Position numbers and translations under genes: made by a program. A stretch of DNA of 33,399 nt from Bifidobacteriaceae bacterium (GTDB lineage Bacteria; Actinomycetota; Actinomycetes; Actinomycetales; WQXJ01): NCBI GenBank assembly GCA_031257375.1, contig JAIROU010000307.1:1-33399 (forward strand). Direction: 5' to 3'. Under the pieces are notes generated by a model. It ran no database searches, was not told where the DNA came from, and saw only the letters and a program-made list of their open reading frames with translations. Shown piece by piece: positions 5,829 through 22,106 of this stretch; position 1 is the stretch's first letter, and each line of letters begins with the position of its first letter.

Positions 5829-5895
5829 CGAGCCGCCTTGGGGAATCGAACCCCGGACATTCTCAGCGGTTGATTGGCTTCCAACGGTTTGCGTG
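5829..5895 (-). repeat. att-like partial tRNA-Thr 3' end, copy A
   Basis: agccgccttggggaatcgaacccc (minus strand GGGGTTCGATTCCCCAAGGCGGCT: T-arm plus acceptor). Confidence 0.75.
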
Positions 5896-6254: not shown

Positions 6255-6565
6255 AGTATTGCCGTACCTCCCTCTGAGTCGCTAGTCGTACTGAAATCAG
6301 CAGCACGGCATCGCCGCGTGGCGTCCAAAAGGCCGCATAGATTCTGTTCTCCAGCCGGGCAAGACGCAGGAACCGAGTCTCCGACGGATACTTGGCAGAG
6401 TCGTCGAACCCTAGTCTGTCGCGCCAAAGACGCTGCGCCCGCTCGAAATCGATCCCGTGTTTCGCGCGGTTGGCTCGGCTCTTGCCCGGGTCGTACTCGA
6501 AAACAGGGGTGCCACGGTGCGGGCGCTGGCCGGGGGGGACCGCTCAGCTCGCCTCGCCCGCCCAT
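6235..6565 (-). pseudogene. BrnT-like (DUF497) toxin, copy 1, frameshifted at a C7/G7 homopolymer
   Basis: FEYDPGKSRANRAKHGIDFERAQRLWRDRLGF...RIYAAFWTPRGDAVLLISVR in minus frame; ATG at 6565 out of frame; a 6-nt tract would restore the frame. Confidence 0.65.
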
Positions 6566-7197
6566 CACCCATCCTCGGGCAGGCGCGCGACTATGCGCTG
6601 GTCCCGCGCGTAGGGGACAACCACAACCTTGCCGAAATCCCACATCTCGTCGAACGGCTCCCCGTAGCACACCACGATGGAAGGCCGAATCGCCCTGAAC
6701 ATCTCCCCGTAACCGCGCATAAACTCCCAAGGGACGTCGCGGCAACCCACAGTTGAGACCGACACCACAGAACCGATCTCTATACCCGCGAAGCAGAAAT
6801 CGAAGCTCTTCCCCCCGCTCCACGACACAGTTGGAATCACCGTCATGCCTTGAGCCTGCCAATAGGCGCCGCACCAACGGTTCCGGAACGTATTGACAAG
6901 TTGCAGCATCGCGGACGTGTCCATCCATAAGCTGAAGTCCGGTGACAGGACCTGGCGGTACGCGGCCAATTCCGCGAGGTGTCCTTCGGGAGCACTCCAT
7001 ACCTCGTCGAACTTGCCGTCATCCTCGTAGAAGTGGACGCTGGCCGCCGCGCCCTGGACGTCGTCAGTGACGGTGTTGCTGTACCGAATCAGCTGCAGGT
7101 CGTCTAAGGCCACAGCCTGCCTGCGGATCAAGGGCATGTCGTAGCGCCCCACCAACGGCAAGCCCTGTTCGAAATACCATTCGATCAGATGCGCCAT
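6565..7197 (-). CDS. DUF4417-like protein, full-length copy
   Basis: YRQVLSPDFSLWMDTSAMLQLVNTFRNRWCGAYWQAQGMTVIPTVSWSGGKSFDFCFAGI. Confidence 0.65.
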   Translation of the reverse strand: MAHLIEWYFEQGLPLVGRYDMPLIRRQAVALDDLQLIRYSNTVTDDVQGAAASVHFYEDDGKFDEVWSAPEGHLAELAAYRQVLSPDFSLWMDTSAMLQLVNTFRNRWCGAYWQAQGMTVIPTVSWSGGKSFDFCFAGIEIGSVVSVSTVGCRDVPWEFMRGYGEMFRAIRPSIVVCYGEPFDEMWDFGKVVVVPYARDQRIVARLPEDG

Positions 7198-7475: not shown

Positions 7476-7516
7476 AAACGAGCCGCCTTCGGGAATCGAA
7501 CCCGAGACCTATTCTT
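7476..7516 (-). repeat. att-like partial tRNA-Thr 3' end, copy B
   Basis: aaacgagccgccttcgggaatcgaacccgagacctattctt. Confidence 0.75.
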
Positions 7517-7519
7517 GGC

Positions 7520-7868
7520 GGCGGCGCTGCAGGTGGTCAACACGTTGCGCAACCGATGGTGTGGCGCGTACTGGCAGGCGAAAGGGCTGACCGTGATCCC
7601 GACTGTGTCGTGGGGCAGCGGCAAGAGCTTCGACTTCTGTTTCGCGGGAATTGAGCAGGGCGGTGTGGTGTCAGTCTCGACTGTCGGCTGCAAGGACGCG
7701 CGGAGGGAGTTCATGCGGGGGTACCAAGAGATGCTGCGGGCGGTAAGACCCGAAGCGGTGGTCTGCTACGGCGAGCCTTTCGAGGAGATGTTCGGGCAGA
7801 GCGAACTTGTCATCGTCCCGTACGTCCGCAACCAGCGGATCGCTACCCGTTTGCGAGGGGATGCCTAA
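7520..7868 (+). pseudogene. 5'-truncated DUF4417 gene, starting at att copy B
   Basis: LQVVNTLRNRWCGAYWQAKGLTVIPTVSWGSGKSFDFCFAGI... aligns to residues from about 99 onward of the 6565-7197 protein; 5' part replaced by the tRNA-like sequence. Confidence 0.65.
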
Positions 7869-8420: not shown

Positions 8421-8540
8421 CCCGGGAACGACGCGACACCTGCTTGCGATCGCGACGACCGCGTTTGCCGTCGCGCGTTGAGTGGTCCAGCCTGCGACGC
8501 TGGTGCCGTCGCCTTGCGCAAGGCAGAAGCCATGTGTGGG

Positions 8541-8612
8541 AGCCGCCTTCGGGAATCGAACCCGAGACCTATTCTTTGCGGTTGATTCGCTTCCAACAGT
8601 TTACGTGGGTTC
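8541..8612 (-). repeat. att-like partial tRNA-Thr 3' end, copy C
   Basis: agccgccttcgggaatcgaacccgagacctattctttgcggttgattcgcttccaacagtttacgtg; shares extended flank with copy A. Confidence 0.75.
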
Positions 8613-8844
8613 GCGTCACCTTCCGTAAACTGCCATTGACCACGGACGATGCCGTGCCGGGGCTTTCGTTGTTTGCCGTCAGTTCGCGCAGGCTCGCGTC
8701 CATTCCGTGGGGTTTCCGTGGGGTTCGGGGCACCCGCGGACAGCGGGAAACGGGAAAATGAAGAGCGCCGCGGCCGTGAGGCCTGCGACGCTCTTCCCAA
8801 CCCCGTTGCCGGGGAATTGTGCTTCAACTGTAACCTGGGATGTG

Positions 8845-9639
8845 ATGTTGCCGCAACCAGAACCCAAGCTCGTGCCGGGGCTGCTGGCCATGGTGGCGCC
8901 AGAGCGCCTGCGGAAGTTCCGTCGAGCCGCCCCGGCAGGGGCGCACCGGGCGGCCCTCAGCATGTATCTGGTGGATGCCGAGTTGACCTCGTACTTCCAT
9001 GCGTTGCTGCGGATCGTTGAGGTGCTGTTGCGTGAGGCCATCCACCGGGCGATGCGCGATGCGTTCGGGACACCCAGGTGGTTCGCCGTTCCAAACGTGC
9101 GCGCGCTGCTCGATCCGCGAACCGTCACGGCCCTGGACGACGCGCAGCGAGGCGCCAACCCCAGTGTCCGCGGCACACCCGCCGCAGGCAGTGTCGTGGC
9201 GGGAATGATGTTCGGAACCTGGGTGAACCTCCTTGACACTGGCGCGCGCGGAAATTACGAAGCGGACTTGTGGCGTCCAGTCATTTCCGGGGTATTCCAG
9301 GCTGACCAGCCAACGGCGCCGCATCCGCGGGCTCAGGTTCACGCCCTGGCCAAACGTATGAACTGGGCCAGGAACCGCGTCAACCATTGCGAACCGGTCA
9401 TCTTCGGCTTCCCGCGCAAAGGCCAGATCACTGCCCAGGGTCTGCGGCTGCGGACAACGCCGCACCAACTGCTCGACGATGCCCGGACCTTATGCGGGTT
9501 CATCAGCCCGGAAACTGCGGCATGGCTCGCCGGTTGGCACCAGTTCGAGGACGTGTTGGCAACCCAGCAGGTAGCCGAAGCTTTGCGCTACATCGACCGC
9601 CAGCCCGGAATCGCCCTCCAAGGACGCCGCAGACAATGA
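8845..9639 (+). CDS. Abi_2/AbiD-F-like abortive infection protein (HEPN)
   Basis: AELTSYFHALLRIVEVLLREAIHRAM...FGTWVNLL...RMNWARNRVNHCEPVI (Rx4H motif). Confidence 0.75.
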   Translation: MLPQPEPKLVPGLLAMVAPERLRKFRRAAPAGAHRAALSMYLVDAELTSYFHALLRIVEVLLREAIHRAMRDAFGTPRWFAVPNVRALLDPRTVTALDDAQRGANPSVRGTPAAGSVVAGMMFGTWVNLLDTGARGNYEADLWRPVISGVFQADQPTAPHPRAQVHALAKRMNWARNRVNHCEPVIFGFPRKGQITAQGLRLRTTPHQLLDDARTLCGFISPETAAWLAGWHQFEDVLATQQVAEALRYIDRQPGIALQGRRRQ

Positions 9640-9751: not shown

Positions 9752-10924
9752 CTACTTGGCTGCGGCATGTCGCATGCGAAGCTCGGCTCGGTATTCCCGC
9801 CGGACCTGGTCGTAACGAGCGTCGTCAAGTGCCGCCAGGTAGCTCACGGCATCGCCCGACCAACTCGTGGTCTGCGAGCTCATGTGTCGCCAGGCATATC
9901 TGGGCTGGTCCCTTAGTCCTTCTTTCCAGCAAATCGCCTGGTAGTCGCGTGTAGTAAGGTGCCGTCCGTTTCGGCGTTGGTTGACTTTTGCCAGGAGTTC
10001 TGTGGCGCTGTGGGGATGGGTCTCATTGGGGTCGGTCTTCCTGATAGCAACTCTGCCATTGGCCGTCGGTACGACAGCCACGGCTAGGTCGGCACTCGTA
10101 ACCTTCTTGACTGACTGAAGGCTGATGTCATATACCATCGCCACCCTTGCCATATCGCTCCCCGAAGCTTCGGCTTCTGCCAAGAGCTTGCGCAAGTCCT
10201 CAACGAACTCTTGAGCCACAGCGACCATGCGGGCATTCTTGTCTACTCGCATGAAAGACACGGAGTCCGCCGGTGCCGTGGCGGCCAGCGGCAGCAGTTG
10301 CCAAGTGACGGAGTCCGCTAGGTCCTTCCCGAACCTGGCCAGCACGAAATCGCGGTAGTTCAGGACGTTCTGCTGCAGGAACGGGTAGATCAACGCGCCC
10401 AGCCCTTGCGCGTTGTAGAGGTGGATAGCGCGGTCGCGGAACTCGGTCAGCGCGCTGATGTTGGCAGTTAGGGCCGAGCCGTCAATCCGGTCCGGCCACA
10501 GCTTACTGTTGGTGACCCTGACCAAAGCATGCTGAAGCGACACCGATCGGTACTTTTCGCCGCGCTTCGTGCGATAGAAGAGGGACTTGCCAGCTTGTCG
10601 CAGGGCGGCCTTCAAGGCAAGCTCCCAGGCGTTGGTCAGCAGGATGGTCGTAAGGGGCCGCCGAAAAATTAACGTCGCGCGGCGCGCCCTGGGCGGGCGC
10701 CCGGCGGCGCCGCAGGCCGCGCCCACGTAGCCCAGCTACGAGGGCGGACCTGCGGCTTGCCGGCCATCCCGCCCAGAACCCGCCGCCACGACGTTAATTT
10801 TCCGGCGGCCCCTAACCTCTTCCCGGTAGGCGATCTGAGGCTTGTTGTAGATCTCAATCGCGGACAACATGGCAGAGAGTGAGTTTGCAACCAATCGCCT
10901 GCTCGACACATACGGGGCCGACAT
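9752..10924 (-). pseudogene. DUF3644-family gene interrupted by a small palindromic element
   Basis: N-part MSAPYVSSRRLVANSLSAMLSAIEIYNKPQIAYREEV and C-part TTILLTNAWELALKAALRQAGKSLFYRTKRG in the same frame, separated by the insert with in-frame TAG at 10736-10738. Confidence 0.75.
10654..10812. mobile_element. MITE-like imperfect palindrome, 159 bp, flanked by TAA direct repeats
   Basis: Ends ggggccgccgaaaaattaacgtcg / cgacgttaattttccggcggcccc (one mismatch over 24 bp); flanks cgTAA and TAAcct. Confidence 0.75.
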
Positions 10925-10939: not shown

Positions 10940-13717
10940 TCAGAACAGGGCTGGGTCGGATTGGTTGGTCAGTTTCGCGTACCGGCGCAAGAGGATACGT
11001 CTTCGGTCGTCGTTGGACGCGCCTTCGGGCACTCGGAACGCATCATCTATCACGGCGTCGACCGTGGCATGGGCTACGAGGACATCTCGCGGCTCGCGCC
11101 CGGCAGCGTAGAGGTCGGCAAGCGACATCTCATACCGCGTCTCATACCGCGTCCGTGCGTCAACGATGGCCCTGGCGCCCTCGATCAACGCCCCCCTTTG
11201 CCTCTCGGTCAGAGTTGGCAGCGGGAACGAGTTGTATGTGAAGGTATTGGAGAACCGCAGGTCGGACTTGATGCGCCCGCCGACGGCCCGCATCCACTGG
11301 ATGAACATCGTGGACGACAGCACGGCGAAGACGAAGCCATCAGGATCGGGAGTCATCGCGTTGGCGTCCCCGCAGATCACTTCTGGCCCAAACCTTGCCG
11401 CCAGGAAGAAGCGGCGGTTCTCACCGACGTGGCGCGGGATCGCCAGGTAGCTGGTCTCTGGTTGCCGCCGCTCGTCGAAGAGCCAGGCTGTCGCCGCCTT
11501 CTTGCGTGTAGGAGCTTTGGCACTGGCAGACCGGAAAGCCTTCACTGCGGAGACTCTGGAGGCGAGTAGCTGTGAACTCGCGATCTCTTCCGGAGTCGCG
11601 CTTTCCAGCCAAAGGCACCACCGGTTGATTCCGTGCAGGAGCTCCCGCGCGCCGACGAACCGGCGAACGAAGCGCCGGGCGATCGGATCTGCTTGTGCAG
11701 TGGCGAGCGATTCCCCGTCGAGGAAAAAGTTCCCATCGTCGGTCGGCTGGCTGCCTTTGGTGACTGTGGGGAGCCGCGCCCCGAGCGGGGCACCCGCACT
11801 GCTTATGTAGATCATCGGCGCGTCCGCGATCAGGTAGGCGTTGATCTGGGCGGCGTCTGTCCGGACCTGTTTGCCTTGGCCGTCTTCGCCATAGGTCCAG
11901 AGCACCGGTTTGGGTGTCGCGGATCTGTCGAAGCCGATGATTGAGACGTGCACAGCCGCCCCGTCTGCCGCCTCGGTCGCCCAGCGGAAAGAACGGTGGG
12001 CGAATCGGCAGCGCCACCCGTTTGCCGTTATGGGCCGCCACAGATATTCAGCGCCTTCGCCCGTGCAGATGGAGTTGGTGGAGACGAAGCCCCAGCGAGC
12101 CTTGTGATCGCCGTAGTAGTCGATCACCTTGGCGTACCAGCAGGTCACATAGTCTAAGTAGCCGTTGTAACGGGTGCCCCAGACGGTCTGAGCTTCAGCC
12201 TTCTGGGTTGCGGTCTTGGTGTATTGTCCGACGAAGGGCGGGTTGCCGACGATTATCACCTGGTCGGATGGGGGAACGATGGCCGCCCAGTCCTCGCGCA
12301 GGGCGTTGCCGTGGATGATGGTGGGGGCCAGTTTGATGGGGAGCCGGTGCGGAGCGGTGCCGAACTCTTCTTCCATTTGCTGGTTGGCCAGGTGGTCTAC
12401 CAGGAGCATGGCGGTCTCAGCGATGCGGGCGGGCCATTCCTCGATCTCTATGCCAAAGAAGTGGTCGATGGTGACGCAGACGTACTGGCTGACGTCAAGG
12501 ACGCCTTGGGCGAGGTTGCCCCTCTCGCTGTTGACCTTGCCGTCCGCCATGTCGAGGTTGCGGCGGTGAACCAGTGCCCGCAGTTCGATGGAGCGCAGTT
12601 CGCGGTAGGCGACCACCAGGAAGTTGCCGCAACCGCAGGCCGGGTCCATGACCCGGAGCGCCTTGAGGTCGTCTAACAGGCGGGTGAGCTGGCCCTTGTC
12701 GTGCTTCGCCCGCTCCAGCCGGTCTTCGAGTTCGTCCAGGAACAGCGGGCGCAGGGTGCGCAGGATGTTCGTCTCGGTGGTGTAGTGCTCGCCCATCTTG
12801 CGGCGGGCCTTCTTGTCCTTCACCGTCTGGAACATGGAACCGAAGATCGCCGGCGAGATAACAGACCAGTCGAAGTCGCAGGCGCCGAGCAGGGCAGCGC
12901 GGAAGCCTTCGCCTAGCTGCGGCAGGTCCAGCGGCTCGCTGAACAGGCCGCCGTTGATGTACGGCAGGCGGTGTAGCGGATGGCCATCATCAATGCCGCG
13001 TTCTGTCTCGGCCTGGTTGGCCAGCGCGAACACCTCAAGGAGTCCCGTATGCAGGTTTTCATCCGTGGTGTGCCGGTCGATGTATGCCTTGAAGATGTCG
13101 GAGCGGTTCTGGCCCCACATGGTGGTGTCGTCGCCGAACAGCAGGAACAGGAGCCGCGCCAGCAGCAGGGTGGCCTGGCCGCCTGTCACGCCGACGGTCT
13201 CCAGGTTCCCGTAGAGCGTGCCCATGAGCTTGGCGGCTTTGCTCGACTCGGATTCAATCTGGACGTCAAAGGCCTCCCGCATGCGCCCCAGCAGCGCGAC
13301 CAGCGTCGGCGGTTGCTTGATGTCGATCTCTATCGCCCCAAGCTTTTGTTCAAGGTCTTGGTTCCGCTCTCCCACCACATACCGGTGCACCATGAGCTTG
13401 GCGTTTATCCCGCCGGTCTGCGAGCGCCGGGGCCAGCGCCAGTCCTGGTAGCCGTCACCGCAGAAAATGAGCAGCCGCTCCTGGCTCTCCTTGCCGACCA
13501 CCGCGTCGATCTGCCGTTGGACTCTTCGGGGCGGCGCCTGGTCGCACACCCAGACCCGGAGACCCTTGTACGATGCCGCCGGGTCAAGCTTGTACGTGGT
13601 GCCCTCGGCCCAGACGGTGAGCGGTTCGCGATCCGGGTTGTTCCAGCCCAGTCGCTTGATGAAGAGCGAGCGGAAGCGGCCGGCGTCTACCAGTTCCAAG
13701 ATGCTGCCGCCGCTCAT
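10940..13717 (-). CDS. Large MmeI-like / class I SAM-dependent DNA methyltransferase (probable N6-adenine)
   Basis: VMDPACGCGNFLVVAYREL (motif I), VIIVGNPPFVGQ (motif IV), MGEHYTTETNILRTL. Confidence 0.85.
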   Translation of the reverse strand: MSGGSILELVDAGRFRSLFIKRLGWNNPDREPLTVWAEGTTYKLDPAASYKGLRVWVCDQAPPRRVQRQIDAVVGKESQERLLIFCGDGYQDWRWPRRSQTGGINAKLMVHRYVVGERNQDLEQKLGAIEIDIKQPPTLVALLGRMREAFDVQIESESSKAAKLMGTLYGNLETVGVTGGQATLLLARLLFLLFGDDTTMWGQNRSDIFKAYIDRHTTDENLHTGLLEVFALANQAETERGIDDGHPLHRLPYINGGLFSEPLDLPQLGEGFRAALLGACDFDWSVISPAIFGSMFQTVKDKKARRKMGEHYTTETNILRTLRPLFLDELEDRLERAKHDKGQLTRLLDDLKALRVMDPACGCGNFLVVAYRELRSIELRALVHRRNLDMADGKVNSERGNLAQGVLDVSQYVCVTIDHFFGIEIEEWPARIAETAMLLVDHLANQQMEEEFGTAPHRLPIKLAPTIIHGNALREDWAAIVPPSDQVIIVGNPPFVGQYTKTATQKAEAQTVWGTRYNGYLDYVTCWYAKVIDYYGDHKARWGFVSTNSICTGEGAEYLWRPITANGWRCRFAHRSFRWATEAADGAAVHVSIIGFDRSATPKPVLWTYGEDGQGKQVRTDAAQINAYLIADAPMIYISSAGAPLGARLPTVTKGSQPTDDGNFFLDGESLATAQADPIARRFVRRFVGARELLHGINRWCLWLESATPEEIASSQLLASRVSAVKAFRSASAKAPTRKKAATAWLFDERRQPETSYLAIPRHVGENRRFFLAARFGPEVICGDANAMTPDPDGFVFAVLSSTMFIQWMRAVGGRIKSDLRFSNTFTYNSFPLPTLTERQRGALIEGARAIVDARTRYETRYEMSLADLYAAGREPRDVLVAHATVDAVIDDAFRVPEGASNDDRRRILLRRYAKLTNQSDPALF

Positions 13718-16700
13718 GGCGCCACGCCCATCGTCGTGATGATCCGCACCGGGTCTTCGCCCGCCTTGGTGGGGATGACCAACTTGCCATCGGAGTGAAG
13801 ACTCCCCAGCAGCGCGAACAGGTCTATGTCGCTGACCCCGTTGCGGATGGCTCGGCGCAGGCGCGTCTCAGCCAGGCCGGTCAACGGGTGTTGGTAAAGG
13901 GCCTCCAACGCCAAATGGCCTTCATCGTCGGTGTTCGCGGGTTGGAGCGGCTCTCCGAGCCGCGTCCAAACCCGCTTGCGGACCCCGCGCAGACGCCCTG
14001 AGGCGGTGGCGGCTTTGGTCAAGTCGCCGCGGACCATCGTTTCAACAAGCGAGTCGTGGTCTTCCCTGAGCGGCTGTCCGGGCTCGTGCGGGTCGGCCCG
14101 GAACAAGGCGAGCGCCTCATGGCCGGTGAGGTGACGCGGGGCTAGGCCCGGCCCGCAGAACGCGAACCCGTCCACGCCGTTGGCGGAGCGCACGTAACAC
14201 CCCACCCCATCGGCCTGCTCGCCGAGCCGTTTGGCACGGGTCGCATCCACCATGTCCGGCATCGCCGGGGTGCGCTTGGCCAGTTCCGGCTCGCGTTCCA
14301 CCGCTTGACTCCAATACTGGTAGGCGAGCGAAGAGGCGTCCACGTCCTCGTCGGTGGCGATCTCATCCAGCTTGCCGTTGTACAAGTCTTCGATGATCTG
14401 GGTCTCGTCGGCGGAGCCGAAGAACTGCTCATCGGAGCCGAACGCCTGGGCGTTGGCGGCCAGGCGGTTCCCGATCCGCTGCCTAAGCGAGATCACATTA
14501 TCGACGCTCTCATGGAAGAAGGAGTAGATCACCACCTCAGCCGACCGCTGGCCGATCCGGTCGACCCGCCCGGCGCGTTGGATCAGACGGATGATGGCCC
14601 AAGGTAAGTCGAAATTCACCACGACGTGGGCGTCCTGGAGGTTCTGGCCCTCCGAGAGCACGTCGGTCGCCACCAACACGCGCAACTCGCCTTGATTCGC
14701 CACTGCTCTCTCGCCCGCAGCGCCGTTGGAGCAGGGAGCGAACCTCGCCGCCAACAAGGTCGGGTTCTCACTGTCTCCCGTCGCCACACCAACCTTCGCG
14801 ATGCCTGCGACCTCAAGCTGTTTGCCGAGGTAGACGGCAGTGTCCTGGTACTCGGTGAAGATCAGCACCTTCTCCTGCGGGTGGTCGACCTTGAGCAGCC
14901 TCACCAGTTCATTCAGCTTCGAGTCGGCCCCGGCGGTCCACGGCCCGTACCAGTCCAGCAACTCTCTGATGGCCGCGCTGTCGTGCGCGATGTCGGCCGC
15001 AAGCCGACCCGAGAACAATTCGGCTCGCACCCACTCCACGCCGCTGGGGTCGGATTGCCGAAGGGCCTCATATGCGGCGCCCGGATCAGCCTCGCCTGCC
15101 GCGTCGCCGTCCAACGTGCCGTCGGCGTCATCGTCCAAGCTCAGGGCGGAGATGTCGCCTGTTGGCACGGGCAGCCCGTCGGACAGCGCGTGCAACCATA
15201 GATCGTTGCGGGCCAGGTGCCGCCGGAGCGAAAGCTCGAAGGAGAACCCGCAAGACGACAGCCGCTTATACAAGGTGGTCCTGACAAACCCAGCCACATG
15301 CCCCCTACCGCGGGTGACGCGGTCGAAAAACTCCAGCTCTGCGTCGGTCGGTTTGACGGTGCGCAGCACATACTGACCAAGCTGATAGCGGGGCAGCTTC
15401 AGAGACAAGATCGCGTCGAGCGTCGCATCGGAGGCCATCTTGGTTGCGGGGTCGTCCGGGCCGAATGAGTGGTCTACGGGTCTTGGGCTACGACTGGGGA
15501 ATGTGAAGCGGCTGCCGTCTGTGAACTCCAGGTACCGCTCGCCTGTGGCCAAATCGGTCTTGGAGTAGCTGGATTCAATAAACGAGCGGGTTCGTCTGAC
15601 CAAATGCTCTGACATCAGCCGCTTCCAATCGTCGGCGTCCTCGGATTTGCGGAACGCAGCCAAGGTGGTGGTCTTGGAGTCCACACTGTCGGCGATGTTC
15701 GGGTCTTCGCGCAGGGCGTTCAGGGGCGCTATTCCGAGGTCGTCGTCATCGTCCACATACAGAGCGAGTTGGTTGGCGACATCGGCGAACCGGATGTTGA
15801 ACGGTGTCGCCGTGAGCAGCAACACCTTCGATTCGTTGCGTTGGATGTAATCACGGATCGCCTGATAATCCTGGCGCCGGTCGTTTCGCAGCGTATGAGA
15901 CTCGTCGGCGATGACGAACGGATAGCGGCGCAGCTCCGGCAACACTTTTCCGGCCATCGAGTAGGGCACCACACGGCCGTGCAAGTCGTATTCTTCCAAG
16001 TGGTCCTCCCACATCCGTTGCAGATTCTTCGGGCAAAGGACCAATGGCTGGTAGCCATGCTCGTCGCGGAGCATCAGCGCTACCGCGATGGCCGTCAAGG
16101 TTTTCCCCAGGCCGACCACGTCGCCGAGCATCGCGCCGCGTCGGTTCATGATCCGCCGGGCGAGCGTGCGCACGGCAGTGGTCTGGTAGTCCAGGAGGGT
16201 TCCGGCGATCTGCTGGGGAACCGAGTACTCCGCCAGGCCGTCGCGAACATCGCGGGACAAGTCGTAGCAAAGCTTCAGGAACACGTCGTACGGCCGCCGA
16301 GGGCTCGGCGCCGCCCAGGACTCGTCAATCAAGTCCAGGATGTCATCTGTGACATCGAGAGAGAACCTGTCGTTCCAGCGGTCCTCGAACCACCGAGCCA
16401 AGTCCGCCGCCCCCTGATTGTCCAGCACGTCAACGTTCAATTCGTAGTTCGAGGTCAGTCCCGGATACGTCAGGTTCGACGAGCCCACAAAACCGACAAT
16501 CGGACTGTTCACGCTGGCGGGCTTGTGGAAGATGTAGGCCTTGCCGTGCAGCGGGCGGGCTGTGAAAACTTTGACTTGGACCTTTCCCGACTTGATCTGG
16601 GCACGCAGCGCTTGCAGGGTCTGGCGGTCATCCGGGGTCGGAAGGCCCCGCATCAGCTGGGTCCTTAGATGCTCAACCAACTCCCCGCAGCGCGCCATCG

Positions 16701-16980
16701 CTGTGGAACCGTCAGCGTCGAAGACGCGGCGTCCGTCAACACAAGCCTGCAACCCGTCCAACGCCTCGCGGTGCGCGGTGCCCGTCGCCATGCCGATCAG
16801 CACACGCGCAACCGGGTCGTCGCCAGCGGGACGGTTGTCCACCAGCGGAGCGAATGTGCCCCACCCGCGGAGGTTGAAGTAGCCGACCGCCACGTCCATC
16901 CGCTCGAACCCGTCTTCGAACGTAGCCACCAAGTGTTTGCCGAGTTCGTTGCCCTTGATGTTGTCGAGAATGCGGGTCAC
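13714..16980 (-). CDS. PLD-nuclease-domain SNF2-family helicase
   Basis: LHGKAYIFHKP...GSSNLTYPGLTSNYEL (PLD); GAMLGDVVGLGKTLTA, IADESHTLRNDR, LLTATPFN, VLVATDVLSEGQNLQ, RLIQRAGRVDRIGQ (SF2); likely GTG start at 16980; 4-nt overlap with the MTase gene. Confidence 0.9.
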   Translation of the reverse strand: MTRILDNIKGNELGKHLVATFEDGFERMDVAVGYFNLRGWGTFAPLVDNRPAGDDPVARVLIGMATGTAHREALDGLQACVDGRRVFDADGSTAMARCGELVEHLRTQLMRGLPTPDDRQTLQALRAQIKSGKVQVKVFTARPLHGKAYIFHKPASVNSPIVGFVGSSNLTYPGLTSNYELNVDVLDNQGAADLARWFEDRWNDRFSLDVTDDILDLIDESWAAPSPRRPYDVFLKLCYDLSRDVRDGLAEYSVPQQIAGTLLDYQTTAVRTLARRIMNRRGAMLGDVVGLGKTLTAIAVALMLRDEHGYQPLVLCPKNLQRMWEDHLEEYDLHGRVVPYSMAGKVLPELRRYPFVIADESHTLRNDRRQDYQAIRDYIQRNESKVLLLTATPFNIRFADVANQLALYVDDDDDLGIAPLNALREDPNIADSVDSKTTTLAAFRKSEDADDWKRLMSEHLVRRTRSFIESSYSKTDLATGERYLEFTDGSRFTFPSRSPRPVDHSFGPDDPATKMASDATLDAILSLKLPRYQLGQYVLRTVKPTDAELEFFDRVTRGRGHVAGFVRTTLYKRLSSCGFSFELSLRRHLARNDLWLHALSDGLPVPTGDISALSLDDDADGTLDGDAAGEADPGAAYEALRQSDPSGVEWVRAELFSGRLAADIAHDSAAIRELLDWYGPWTAGADSKLNELVRLLKVDHPQEKVLIFTEYQDTAVYLGKQLEVAGIAKVGVATGDSENPTLLAARFAPCSNGAAGERAVANQGELRVLVATDVLSEGQNLQDAHVVVNFDLPWAIIRLIQRAGRVDRIGQRSAEVVIYSFFHESVDNVISLRQRIGNRLAANAQAFGSDEQFFGSADETQIIEDLYNGKLDEIATDEDVDASSLAYQYWSQAVEREPELAKRTPAMPDMVDATRAKRLGEQADGVGCYVRSANGVDGFAFCGPGLAPRHLTGHEALALFRADPHEPGQPLREDHDSLVETMVRGDLTKAATASGRLRGVRKRVWTRLGEPLQPANTDDEGHLALEALYQHPLTGLAETRLRRAIRNGVSDIDLFALLGSLHSDGKLVIPTKAGEDPVRIITTMGVAP

Positions 16981-17092
16981 ACGTAAATGTTCCCACCCGC
17001 CGTGACCGCCCCGCCACCTGCGACCCAACGCCTGAGGCGACAGAGCATAGGCCGTCGCGGGGATGCCGATCGGCGCGTCTCACAAGTCCGGC

Positions 17093-17632
17093 TCAGATGA
17101 GCTGTACTCGCGCACGGGTTGAGCTGCCCGGTGTGAGGCCGCCATTGTCGGTGCTGATGGTTCGGATGGCGGCTGTGGGGCGGCGTCGAGACGTCAGTCG
17201 GCTGGGGTCGTGTTCGACGCTCCCCTCCCTGCGGTCGGCCTGGTCAAGGGCTGGGTCGTATGCTGGTCGGGTCGCCGCCGGGCCGCTAGCAGCCGCTTTG
17301 GCCAAGGCTGTGAGTGCCGCCTGGGCATCCGGCCTAGCGAGCACGGCGGCGTAGATCTCGCGGGCGCGGTCGCCTTGCTCGGTGCCTTGCCTACGGTAGG
17401 CGTCGCGGTTGGCGCGTGGGTTCCCCAACTCCGGCAGGTGCTCGTAGCCGATGCCGTGTTCGGCCAGCTTCTCGGCCAGTTTCCGCTTCGAGAACCCCGG
17501 CTTGCGGGACAGCGGCGTCAGCCTTACATCGAACACCACCGACACACCTGAGGAGACCAGGTCAGCGATGACCTCTTCAACCGCGCAGCCCTCGTAGCCC
17601 ACGCCGACCAATCCACCCGGTTCACGGGTCAT
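17093..17632 (-). CDS. DUF488-family protein
   Basis: GYEGCAVEEVIADLVSSGVSVVFDVRLTPLSRKPGFSKRKLAEKLAEHGIGYEHLPELGNPRANR; C-terminus atypical. Confidence 0.75.
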   Translation of the reverse strand: MTREPGGLVGVGYEGCAVEEVIADLVSSGVSVVFDVRLTPLSRKPGFSKRKLAEKLAEHGIGYEHLPELGNPRANRDAYRRQGTEQGDRAREIYAAVLARPDAQAALTALAKAAASGPAATRPAYDPALDQADRREGSVEHDPSRLTSRRRPTAAIRTISTDNGGLTPGSSTRARVQLI

Positions 17633-17714
17633 CGCTGCCCTGCTCCCACCTTGCGGAAGCTCGGGGTAATCCCGGCTAGGCCGCATGCGTTGTGGCACGA
17701 ATAATCCTCTCGCC

Positions 17715-18110
17715 TCAAGGGCAACCATGGTCTCTCTTACGCTGGTCAAAGGCCCAGAGCGGGGCCCGGCGCGGTCCAGGGCGCCGGGGTCGGCTGGTTC
17801 GAGCCAGTGTATCGCGCATGAAGCGCATGTCTGGCGCGGGCAGCGTGGGCGCGTTCGATGTGGCTCGCACGCCGGCCGCTGTGGGTTCGGCCGCGCCGGG
17901 GAACCCAGCGGTGTGCGCGGCATCGTTCTCAGTGGTGGCGACGTAGGCGGTGTTGGCGCGCCGGCTGCGGGTCAAGGCGACGTAGAGGGTTTCCCTGGTC
18001 GCCTGCGTGGTGATGATGGCGTGGGCGGTGTCTGTGGTGACGCCTTGGGACCTGTGCGCCGTGGTCGCGTAACCCAAATCCAATCGATCGGCCACAGAGG
18101 AGGCGGGCGG
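17715..18110 (-). pseudogene. 3' remnant of a MobF-type (TraA/TrwC-like) relaxase-helicase
   Basis: DRLDLGYATTAHRSQGVTTDTAHAIITTQATRETLYVALTRSRRANTAYV (C-terminal helicase motifs); upstream body absent. Confidence 0.65.
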
Positions 18111-20835: not shown

Positions 20836-20882
20836 AACGAGCCGCCTTGGGGAATCGAACCCCAGACCTATTCATTACGAGG
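20836..20882 (-). repeat. Prophage att site D: tRNA-Thr(CGU) 3' half
   Basis: Minus strand CTCGTAATGAATAGGTCTGGGGTTCGATTCCCCAAGGCGGCT: anticodon loop through 3' end; about 65 bp from the integrase stop. Confidence 0.8.
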
Positions 20883-20948: not shown

Positions 20949-22106
20949 TCATTTCGACGCGACCAGGCGTAGCCTGGCATAGCGTGGCGGGGTGGAAGCC
21001 TGCCCCATGTTTGCCCCACGCGGCGGGGGCAGCGCGGCCCGTATGTCGTCCGCGGTGGCGGGCGCGAAGTGGGCGTAAAGCTCGGTGGTCCGGGTCGATG
21101 AGTGGCCGAGCAACTGCGCTATGCGGCTGAGCGGGACGCCGGCCTGGGCGAGCCAAGAGGCATGGGTGTGGCGAAGATCGTGCAAAGTCGGACGCATGGC
21201 CGCCAGCCCGGCCGCCCTGACGGCGGGCTCCCACACTCGGCGCGTGAAGTTGCGGTTGTCGAGCGGGCCTCCGTTGCCGTTCGGGAACACCAAGCCCGAC
21301 GGGCACTCGCTGTGCCTGTGGGGAACGCCGCAGGGGCGCGGCTCGGGCACGGCCAGACGCTCGACGGCCCAGTCCATGAGCGGGACTCGCCGGAGCCGGC
21401 GGCCCTTCGGGTAGGGCTTGATCTCTTTGCCGCCCACCACGTCGGCCACCGTCACGACGCGCCCCTCGGCGTCAAAGTTGTGGACGTGGAGCCCGGCGAG
21501 CTCGCCCCAGCGGACACCGGTCCCCACCAGGAAGTCGAGAACGGCCCGGCTCTGCTGGTCATGCTCGGGAACCGCGCCCACCAGGGCGGCGTATTGCTCG
21601 CGGGTGAAAAAGACTGGCTCCTCGGGATTGTCTGGCGGCAGTTTGATCCTGGTTGCCGGGTTGGCCTGTAGCAGGTCGGCGTCGATGGCGGCGCTCAAGC
21701 TGGTGCGGAGGACCGCGAGGATTCGCCGGACGCCGGACGCCTTGTGCCCGTTGCCCTCGGTCAGCAGCCCGGACGCCCAGGCTTGCACGTCGTGGCGGCG
21801 GATTTCTGCGAGTTGCACGTCTCCCCAGCGCGGCATTATGTGGGTGTTGACGATGCTGGTCTCGGCGGTGAGCGTCTGCGGCTCCACCGCGCGTGACGGC
21901 CACCAAATGTCGCGCCATTTCGACCAGGTTATTTCGCTTGCGCGCGGATCGAGCGCGCCGGGCTTCCGCGCGTTGACCTCGGTCTCGGTGGCGGCGTTCA
22001 GCGCCGCCTGCTTGTGCTTGTAGACGCCGACCGACCGTTTCGCGCCGTTCCGGAGCCGGTACATGCCCCGCCACCTGCCAGACGGCAGTTTCTCTGTCCA
22101 GGCCAT
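20949..22106 (-). CDS. int: Tyrosine-type site-specific integrase (prophage)
   Basis: LVGTGVRWGELAGL; LHDLRHTHASWLAQAGVPLSRIAQLLGHSSTRTTELYAHF. Confidence 0.95.
   Translation of the reverse strand: MAWTEKLPSGRWRGMYRLRNGAKRSVGVYKHKQAALNAATETEVNARKPGALDPRASEITWSKWRDIWWPSRAVEPQTLTAETSIVNTHIMPRWGDVQLAEIRRHDVQAWASGLLTEGNGHKASGVRRILAVLRTSLSAAIDADLLQANPATRIKLPPDNPEEPVFFTREQYAALVGAVPEHDQQSRAVLDFLVGTGVRWGELAGLHVHNFDAEGRVVTVADVVGGKEIKPYPKGRRLRRVPLMDWAVERLAVPEPRPCGVPHRHSECPSGLVFPNGNGGPLDNRNFTRRVWEPAVRAAGLAAMRPTLHDLRHTHASWLAQAGVPLSRIAQLLGHSSTRTTELYAHFAPATADDIRAALPPPRGANMGQASTPPRYARLRLVASK

Follow-up and report, generated by a model that had tools for sequence, protein, structure and literature searches.

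A probable fold-back MITE in a DUF3644 gene of a predicted defence operon has a hairpin core that is shared across phyla

In a member of the Bifidobacteriaceae, the last gene of a predicted defence operon is interrupted by a short hairpin element. We are highly confident that this element is a non-autonomous MITE that inserted at a TAA within the gene, which encodes a DUF3644 protein, and truncated it, and that the element combines lineage-specific ends with an old, shared core. The window (the whole stretch of DNA that we analyzed) is the 33,399 nucleotides at positions 1 to 33,399 of contig JAIROU010000307.1, and it comes from a genome assembly of 3.85 Mb in 491 contigs, with 89% completeness. 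The features of the element and its operon are listed in Table 1.

Table 1. Positions of the element, its parts, and the genes of the interrupted operon in the window.
Feature	Position	Strand	Remarks
Interrupted DUF3644 gene, last in operon	9752..10924	-	PF12358 and PF18740; PADLOC PDC-S19; uninterrupted homologues
Left copy of the TAA target duplication	10651..10653	.	From sequence; other copies are flanked by TTA/TTA or TAA/TAA
159-bp fold-back MITE, copy e1 (probable)	10654..10812	-	Minus is the better-pairing strand and the host gene's sense strand
Left terminal inverted repeat, GGGGCCGCCGAAAAATTAACGTCG	10654..10677	+
Conserved hairpin core, common to several genera and phyla	10690..10773	-	Covariance model R2, 72.8 bits, E = 1.8e-12
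GTG, the sole possible in-frame restart inside the element downstream of the stop	10724..10726	-	Opens a 324-aa ORF
In-frame TAG stop in the hairpin loop region, truncating the host gene	10736..10738	-
Right terminal inverted repeat, read inwards, GGGGCCGCCGGAAAATTAACGTCG	10789..10812	-
Right copy of the TAA target duplication	10813..10815	.	From sequence
MmeI-like type IIG restriction-modification enzyme, operon neighbour	10940..13717	-
PLD and SNF2-type helicase, operon neighbour	13714..17028	-
DUF488 protein, operon neighbour	17093..17923	-

The original prediction placed a 159-bp hairpin with TAA flanks at 10651-10815, and these coordinates are exact. It also described the ends as inverted and the two halves as alignable, which we can now quantify: the inverted ends and their flanks are 93% complementary across 28 nt, and an alignment of the element with its reverse complement spans 161 nt at 80%. 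As DNA, the element folds with -78.6 kcal/mol, as compared to a mean of -46.1 for shuffled sequences (z = -10.1), and 0 of 200 shuffles did as well. All six frames of the element contain stops, so it is non-coding. In its length, its lack of coding capacity, and its terminal inverted repeats, the element fits the usual definition of a MITE (50-500 bp). Also, it has a target duplication (TAA/TAA), and there are uninterrupted homologues that correspond to the empty site (loci L062 and L063).

The operon contains four co-directional genes, which encode, in order, DUF488, the PLD/SNF2 helicase, the MmeI-like type IIG enzyme, and DUF3644. The host protein has a DUF3644 domain (PF12358, E = 2.8e-25) and a C-terminal restriction-endonuclease-type domain that is EC042_2821-like, and PADLOC lists it as the candidate defence protein PDC-S19. 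Relatives of this protein (E <= 1e-10) are found in 6 of 396 genomes of the order, including its own. Convergent with the interrupted gene is an ORF at 8707-9639 (+) that PADLOC matches weakly to PD-T4-5, an anti-phage protein (E = 8e-9).

Read on the minus strand, the gene begins MSAPYVSS...IAYREEV, is then broken by the element, and resumes with TTILLTNAWEL. The two closest DUF3644 homologues (64% and 52% identical) lack the insert and read ...YRDEVTVMLIVNAWEL and ...YRDEVTVLLVVNAWEL. If the window's flanks are rejoined with one TAA, they give ...YREEVTTILLTNAWEL, which has the same length as the homologues and matches them without gaps. In other words, removing the element and one TAA, which had been predicted to join IAYREEV to TTILLTNAWEL, restores exactly the reading of the uninterrupted homologues. 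That homologous genes might carry this segment as normal coding sequence was one of the objections that the original prediction named, and neither homologue does. These two genes can be read as the empty site at the protein level, from other species and at 52-64% identity. The closest one, L062 (G096:C1), lies directly downstream of a TatD-type-hydrolase-like gene rather than the MmeI-type enzyme, which shows that DUF3644 does not always have the same operon partners.

We propose that a transposase supplied in trans would have inserted the element at a TAA in the DUF3644 gene, duplicating those 3 bp, with the element's better-pairing strand in the gene's sense orientation. We infer that a DDE transposase moved it in this genome. 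The in-frame TAG, which had been predicted to truncate the protein, is directly visible in the frame of the gene; it would end translation after 62 codons, and the DUF3644 protein would be lost unless translation restarts within the element. A restart at an ATG at 10726 had been suggested: there is an in-frame candidate at that point, but its codon is the GTG at 10724-10726, not an ATG. Given the stop codon, we expect that the protein is lost, and its defence function would presumably be lost as well. Precise excision of the element is possible in principle. The ends, as the presumed recognition sites of the transposase, are lineage-specific, and the central ~83 bp form an old, conserved hairpin that elements of this kind have in common across the Actinomycetota and the Proteobacteria.

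A search for further copies, which the original prediction had made decisive, turned up three more complete copies in the same genome: on contig C114 (93%, flanked by TTA/TTA), on C443 (89% over 123 nt, TTA/TTA), and on C106 (67%, TAA/TAA). These percentages are identities to copy e1 in the stretches that match. There are also about 12 fragments, on different contigs. All four of the complete copies have the same three bases, TAA or TTA, on both sides, so we read the duplication as TWA. These copies, with their 3-bp duplication, bear out the description of the element as MITE-like. The window's copy is unusual in lying inside a gene. The copy on C443 sits exactly at the stop codon of a gene, after 428 open codons, and on C462, an element end is at a gene's stop codon after 499 open codons; in both cases, the stop is within the duplicated bases. 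We considered if position 12215 of C462 might be the end of an IS, and rejected this: it is a truncated MITE copy, fused at the gene's stop codon to another repeat. This fused repeat (AAACGGAGGCTTCGCC..., from there to the end of the contig; locus L016) is matched at 24 places in the genome, often close to the end of a contig, and is a second repeat family, separate from the MITE.

Within one genome, the two ends of each copy match over the first ~10 bases, and those bases vary from copy to copy (GGGGCCGCC, GGGGCCGTGC, GGGCTTGGGC, and GGGCTGGCC). In the window's genome, pairing each copy's own arms is the best of all pairings (1/24), and in the unrelated genome G678, 2 to 4 of 720 permutations of the arms do as well as the copies' own pairing. 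The arms retain distinguishing marks (GAA vs. GGA), so one arm was not simply copied onto the other. We also considered if the ends might be duplicated palindromes from the target, and rejected this: in the homologues, a palindrome of that kind is absent from this position.

Between lineages, the ends of the element are unrelated, and the soil actinobacteria and the proteobacteria that carry the core have quite dissimilar ones. The ends of the Streptomyces copies (CTAGTGCTGTGnCCGGAAAGGTT...) match 27-31 bp of the ends of IS630-family elements (1.7-1.9 kb) from Streptomyces plasmids. These IS630-family elements (L223, L227, and L228) contain a transposase and share the CTAG context with the Streptomyces copies, but they lack the hairpin core, and their ends are unlike those of the window copy. 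Because the ends match elements without the core, it appears that the ends follow the transposase and the core does not. A TA duplication within CTAG, together with IS630-type ends, was found for the Streptomyces copies only. We rejected an IS630 origin for the window copy, as TWA (3 bp) is the best reading of its duplication, and the Streptomyces IS630 elements have other ends.

A 3-bp TNA duplication, as expected for IS5-type elements, is present in 4/4 complete copies (TAA or TTA). However, in the 491 contigs (89% complete) of the window's genome, we found no autonomous partner with matching ends, using the DNA pattern of the ends, PF01609, and PF13359, and so the IS with matching terminal repeats that the original prediction called for did not appear there. 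There was also no match to DDE_Tnp_4 in this genome. A complete IS5-family element (L039 at G000:C177; 992 bp; NF033580) does share the TAA/TAA target duplication, but we rejected it as the partner because its ends (GAGGCTGTTTGGGAA) differ from GGGGCCGCCGAAAAATT.

To find relatives of the element, we compared it to 99 related genomes with BLAST, which gave only short GC-rich matches, so a covariance model was required to detect the true relatives. A model built from the copies in the window's own genome identified full-length relatives (166-169 bp) in three further genera of the family. Two of these relatives match records in a pattern scan of 85,462 species, namely a Micrococcales MAG and a Bifidobacteriaceae MAG. 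That scan also detected the core in Pseudonocardiales, Frankiaceae, and Tamaricihabitans, as well as, outside of the phylum, in Roseateles. With the Roseateles copy as the BLAST query, the core turned up on plasmids from Mitsuaria, Comamonas, Cupriavidus, and Martelella (E to 2e-13), in stretches without an annotated gene; these matches span the Beta- and Alphaproteobacteria. A covariance model of the core only had matches in 15 of 398 genomes of Actinomycetota, with 5 to 10 copies in several of them. About 25 copies of the core are in one 8.6-Mb genome; the element ends in it agree with those on Streptomyces plasmids, and on that basis we take it to be a Streptomyces. No match turned up in phage records. 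One related element (L103, at G012:C9) separates two convergent frames, which stay open for 461 and 380 codons. Each of these frames meets a TAG stop where it joins the element, which would fit an insertion into a CTAG at which both genes ended.

On its better-folding strand, the core has about 83 bases and reads approximately GATGcATCGCAAGGCGgagg...nTAGCagcGCTAn...CGACAACGCcGCgaGGCGCCatc. Among 62 aligned copies of the core (56 distinct rows), 91% of the cells pair, and 20 of the 23 pairs show compensatory changes (changes on both sides). The covariation score is 0.521, as compared to 0.192 +/- 0.011 when shuffled and 0.106 or less when slid; since the alignment had been fitted to the model, it is biased towards the structure, and the slid controls have only part of this bias. 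Rfam's covariance models, at a relaxed E-value, gave only sub-threshold hits, none of them on the element, and other Rfam searches had no hits.

The core also has a polarity. With strands named by core homology, one and the same strand gives the better RNA fold in 15 of 16 diverse copies and 40 of 40 further loci, and in the window this is the sense strand of the DUF3644 mRNA. On the better-folding strand, isolated mismatches in the hairpin are G-T in 160 cases and A-C in 30, and in ten Streptomyces-type copies, nearly all of the imperfect arm positions are of the G-T kind. A strand-neutral count that includes internal loops shows a weaker bias than the isolated mismatches do (502 vs. 331, with 18 genomes for a G-T bias and 4 against). 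In all of these mismatch counts, many of the copies are related, so the mismatches are not independent events. Given the weaker bias in the strand-neutral count, we treat an RNA reading as likely only. The G-T bias would be explained by selection that acts on a single-stranded structure, or else by mutation that is specific to one strand.

A preserved interior behind changing ends has two main explanations: either the core is a functional single-stranded hairpin, or it reflects shared ancestry with strand-biased mutation. Under the second explanation, which we consider to be quite plausible if a little short of probable, the element is an ordinary MITE whose core is functionless and has spread horizontally, and the G-T bias is an effect of strand-specific mutation. 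MITEs do spread horizontally, and C-to-T or A-to-G mutation on one strand would equally leave G-T mismatches on one strand. On the other hand, the outer ends have diverged beyond recognition between lineages and the core has not. Compensatory changes at most of the core's pairs also speak against a functionless core, as does the way that the ends change in step within single genomes. The excess of G-T among the arm mismatches on one strand suggests that the core has a single-stranded (probably RNA) role, and we infer that selection on that structure may have kept it. More specifically, and as a tentative proposal, the core might be a functional structure, formed either by RNA or by a single strand of the DNA as a hairpin, and a passenger of non-autonomous elements between transposase systems: it would sit behind the ends of unrelated ISs across phyla, with its pairing under selection.

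It is very improbable that the gene has domesticated the hairpin or uses it as a functional part, such as a protein linker or a regulatory hairpin. The insert and one TAA add up to 162 nt, a multiple of 3, and the Rickettsia palindromic elements, which are palindromes of ~150 bp, do sit in frame within protein-coding genes without shifting the frame (PMC10969869). However, those elements are translated through, and the window element has a stop in the frame that the host uses, as well as in every other frame. Also, uninterrupted homologues exist, and 3 does not divide all of the copies' lengths (131, 159, and 161 nt). Least probable of all is that the element is a palindrome of the REP type, which a REP-associated tyrosine transposase moved instead of a DDE transposase: the element is palindromic, mostly intergenic, and strand-polar, but it is several times the size of a REP, its Streptomyces copies share their ends with a DDE (IS630) element, and it duplicates its target (TWA or CTAG/TA), which is not expected of REP transposases.

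The reading as a non-autonomous MITE agrees with what is known of the type II MITEs of prokaryotes (PMC10969869), which have 150-200 bp, no coding capacity, terminal inverted repeats, and short target duplications. In those elements, too, the likeness to an autonomous element is confined to the ends, the stem-loop is transcript-like, and insertion can inactivate genes. Type II MITEs usually share their ends and have an arbitrary middle, whereas in this family, it is the middle that stays conserved from phylum to phylum and the ends that vary by lineage; the family's targets are TWA or CTAG/TA. The Caulobacter CcrM-associated intergenic repeat (CIR) and similar alphaproteobacterial palindromes are a lead by description only, as long intergenic palindromes.

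The rest of the window contains other repeats. Four copies of a 42-nt sequence that resembles the 3' end of a tRNA gene (GAGCCGCCTTCGGGAATCGAACCC...) are at 5830-5871, 7480-7521, 8540-8581, and 20839-20880. The last of these adjoins a tyrosine integrase (20949-22106, -), and there is no complete tRNA gene in the window. The defence operon is probably on an integrated island with nested attachment sites. A 222-nt inverted repeat (6691-6912 and 7521-7742; 76% complementary) surrounds a DUF4417 gene (6565-7197, -) and looks like an inverted duplication between the attachment-site repeats. Also, a long ORF contains an array of 12-nt tandem repeats (853-1125, +) that encodes a repetitive, acidic stretch rich in Pro, Gly, and Asp.

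MITEs that inactivate genes are well known (PMC10969869), and as far as the literature and Rfam show, what is new is a conserved, covarying core behind different ends. We found no description of such a core in Rfam or in the literature outside of most subscription journals, and a search on the core motif and on the MITEs of actinobacteria, within that same scope, gave no mention of the family.

This locus is a concrete case of a mobile hairpin that interrupts one gene of a defence operon. The autonomous partner IS should have ends like GGGGCCGnnnGAAnAATT or GGGCTnGnnnGAAGAATTATCG, with TWA duplications. The usual definition of a MITE is by its ends; in a family where the interior is the conserved part and the ends follow the local transposase, the interior would have to do something, either for the spread of the element or for the host. 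Because the core hairpin is common in the genomes of culturable Streptomyces, this is directly testable.
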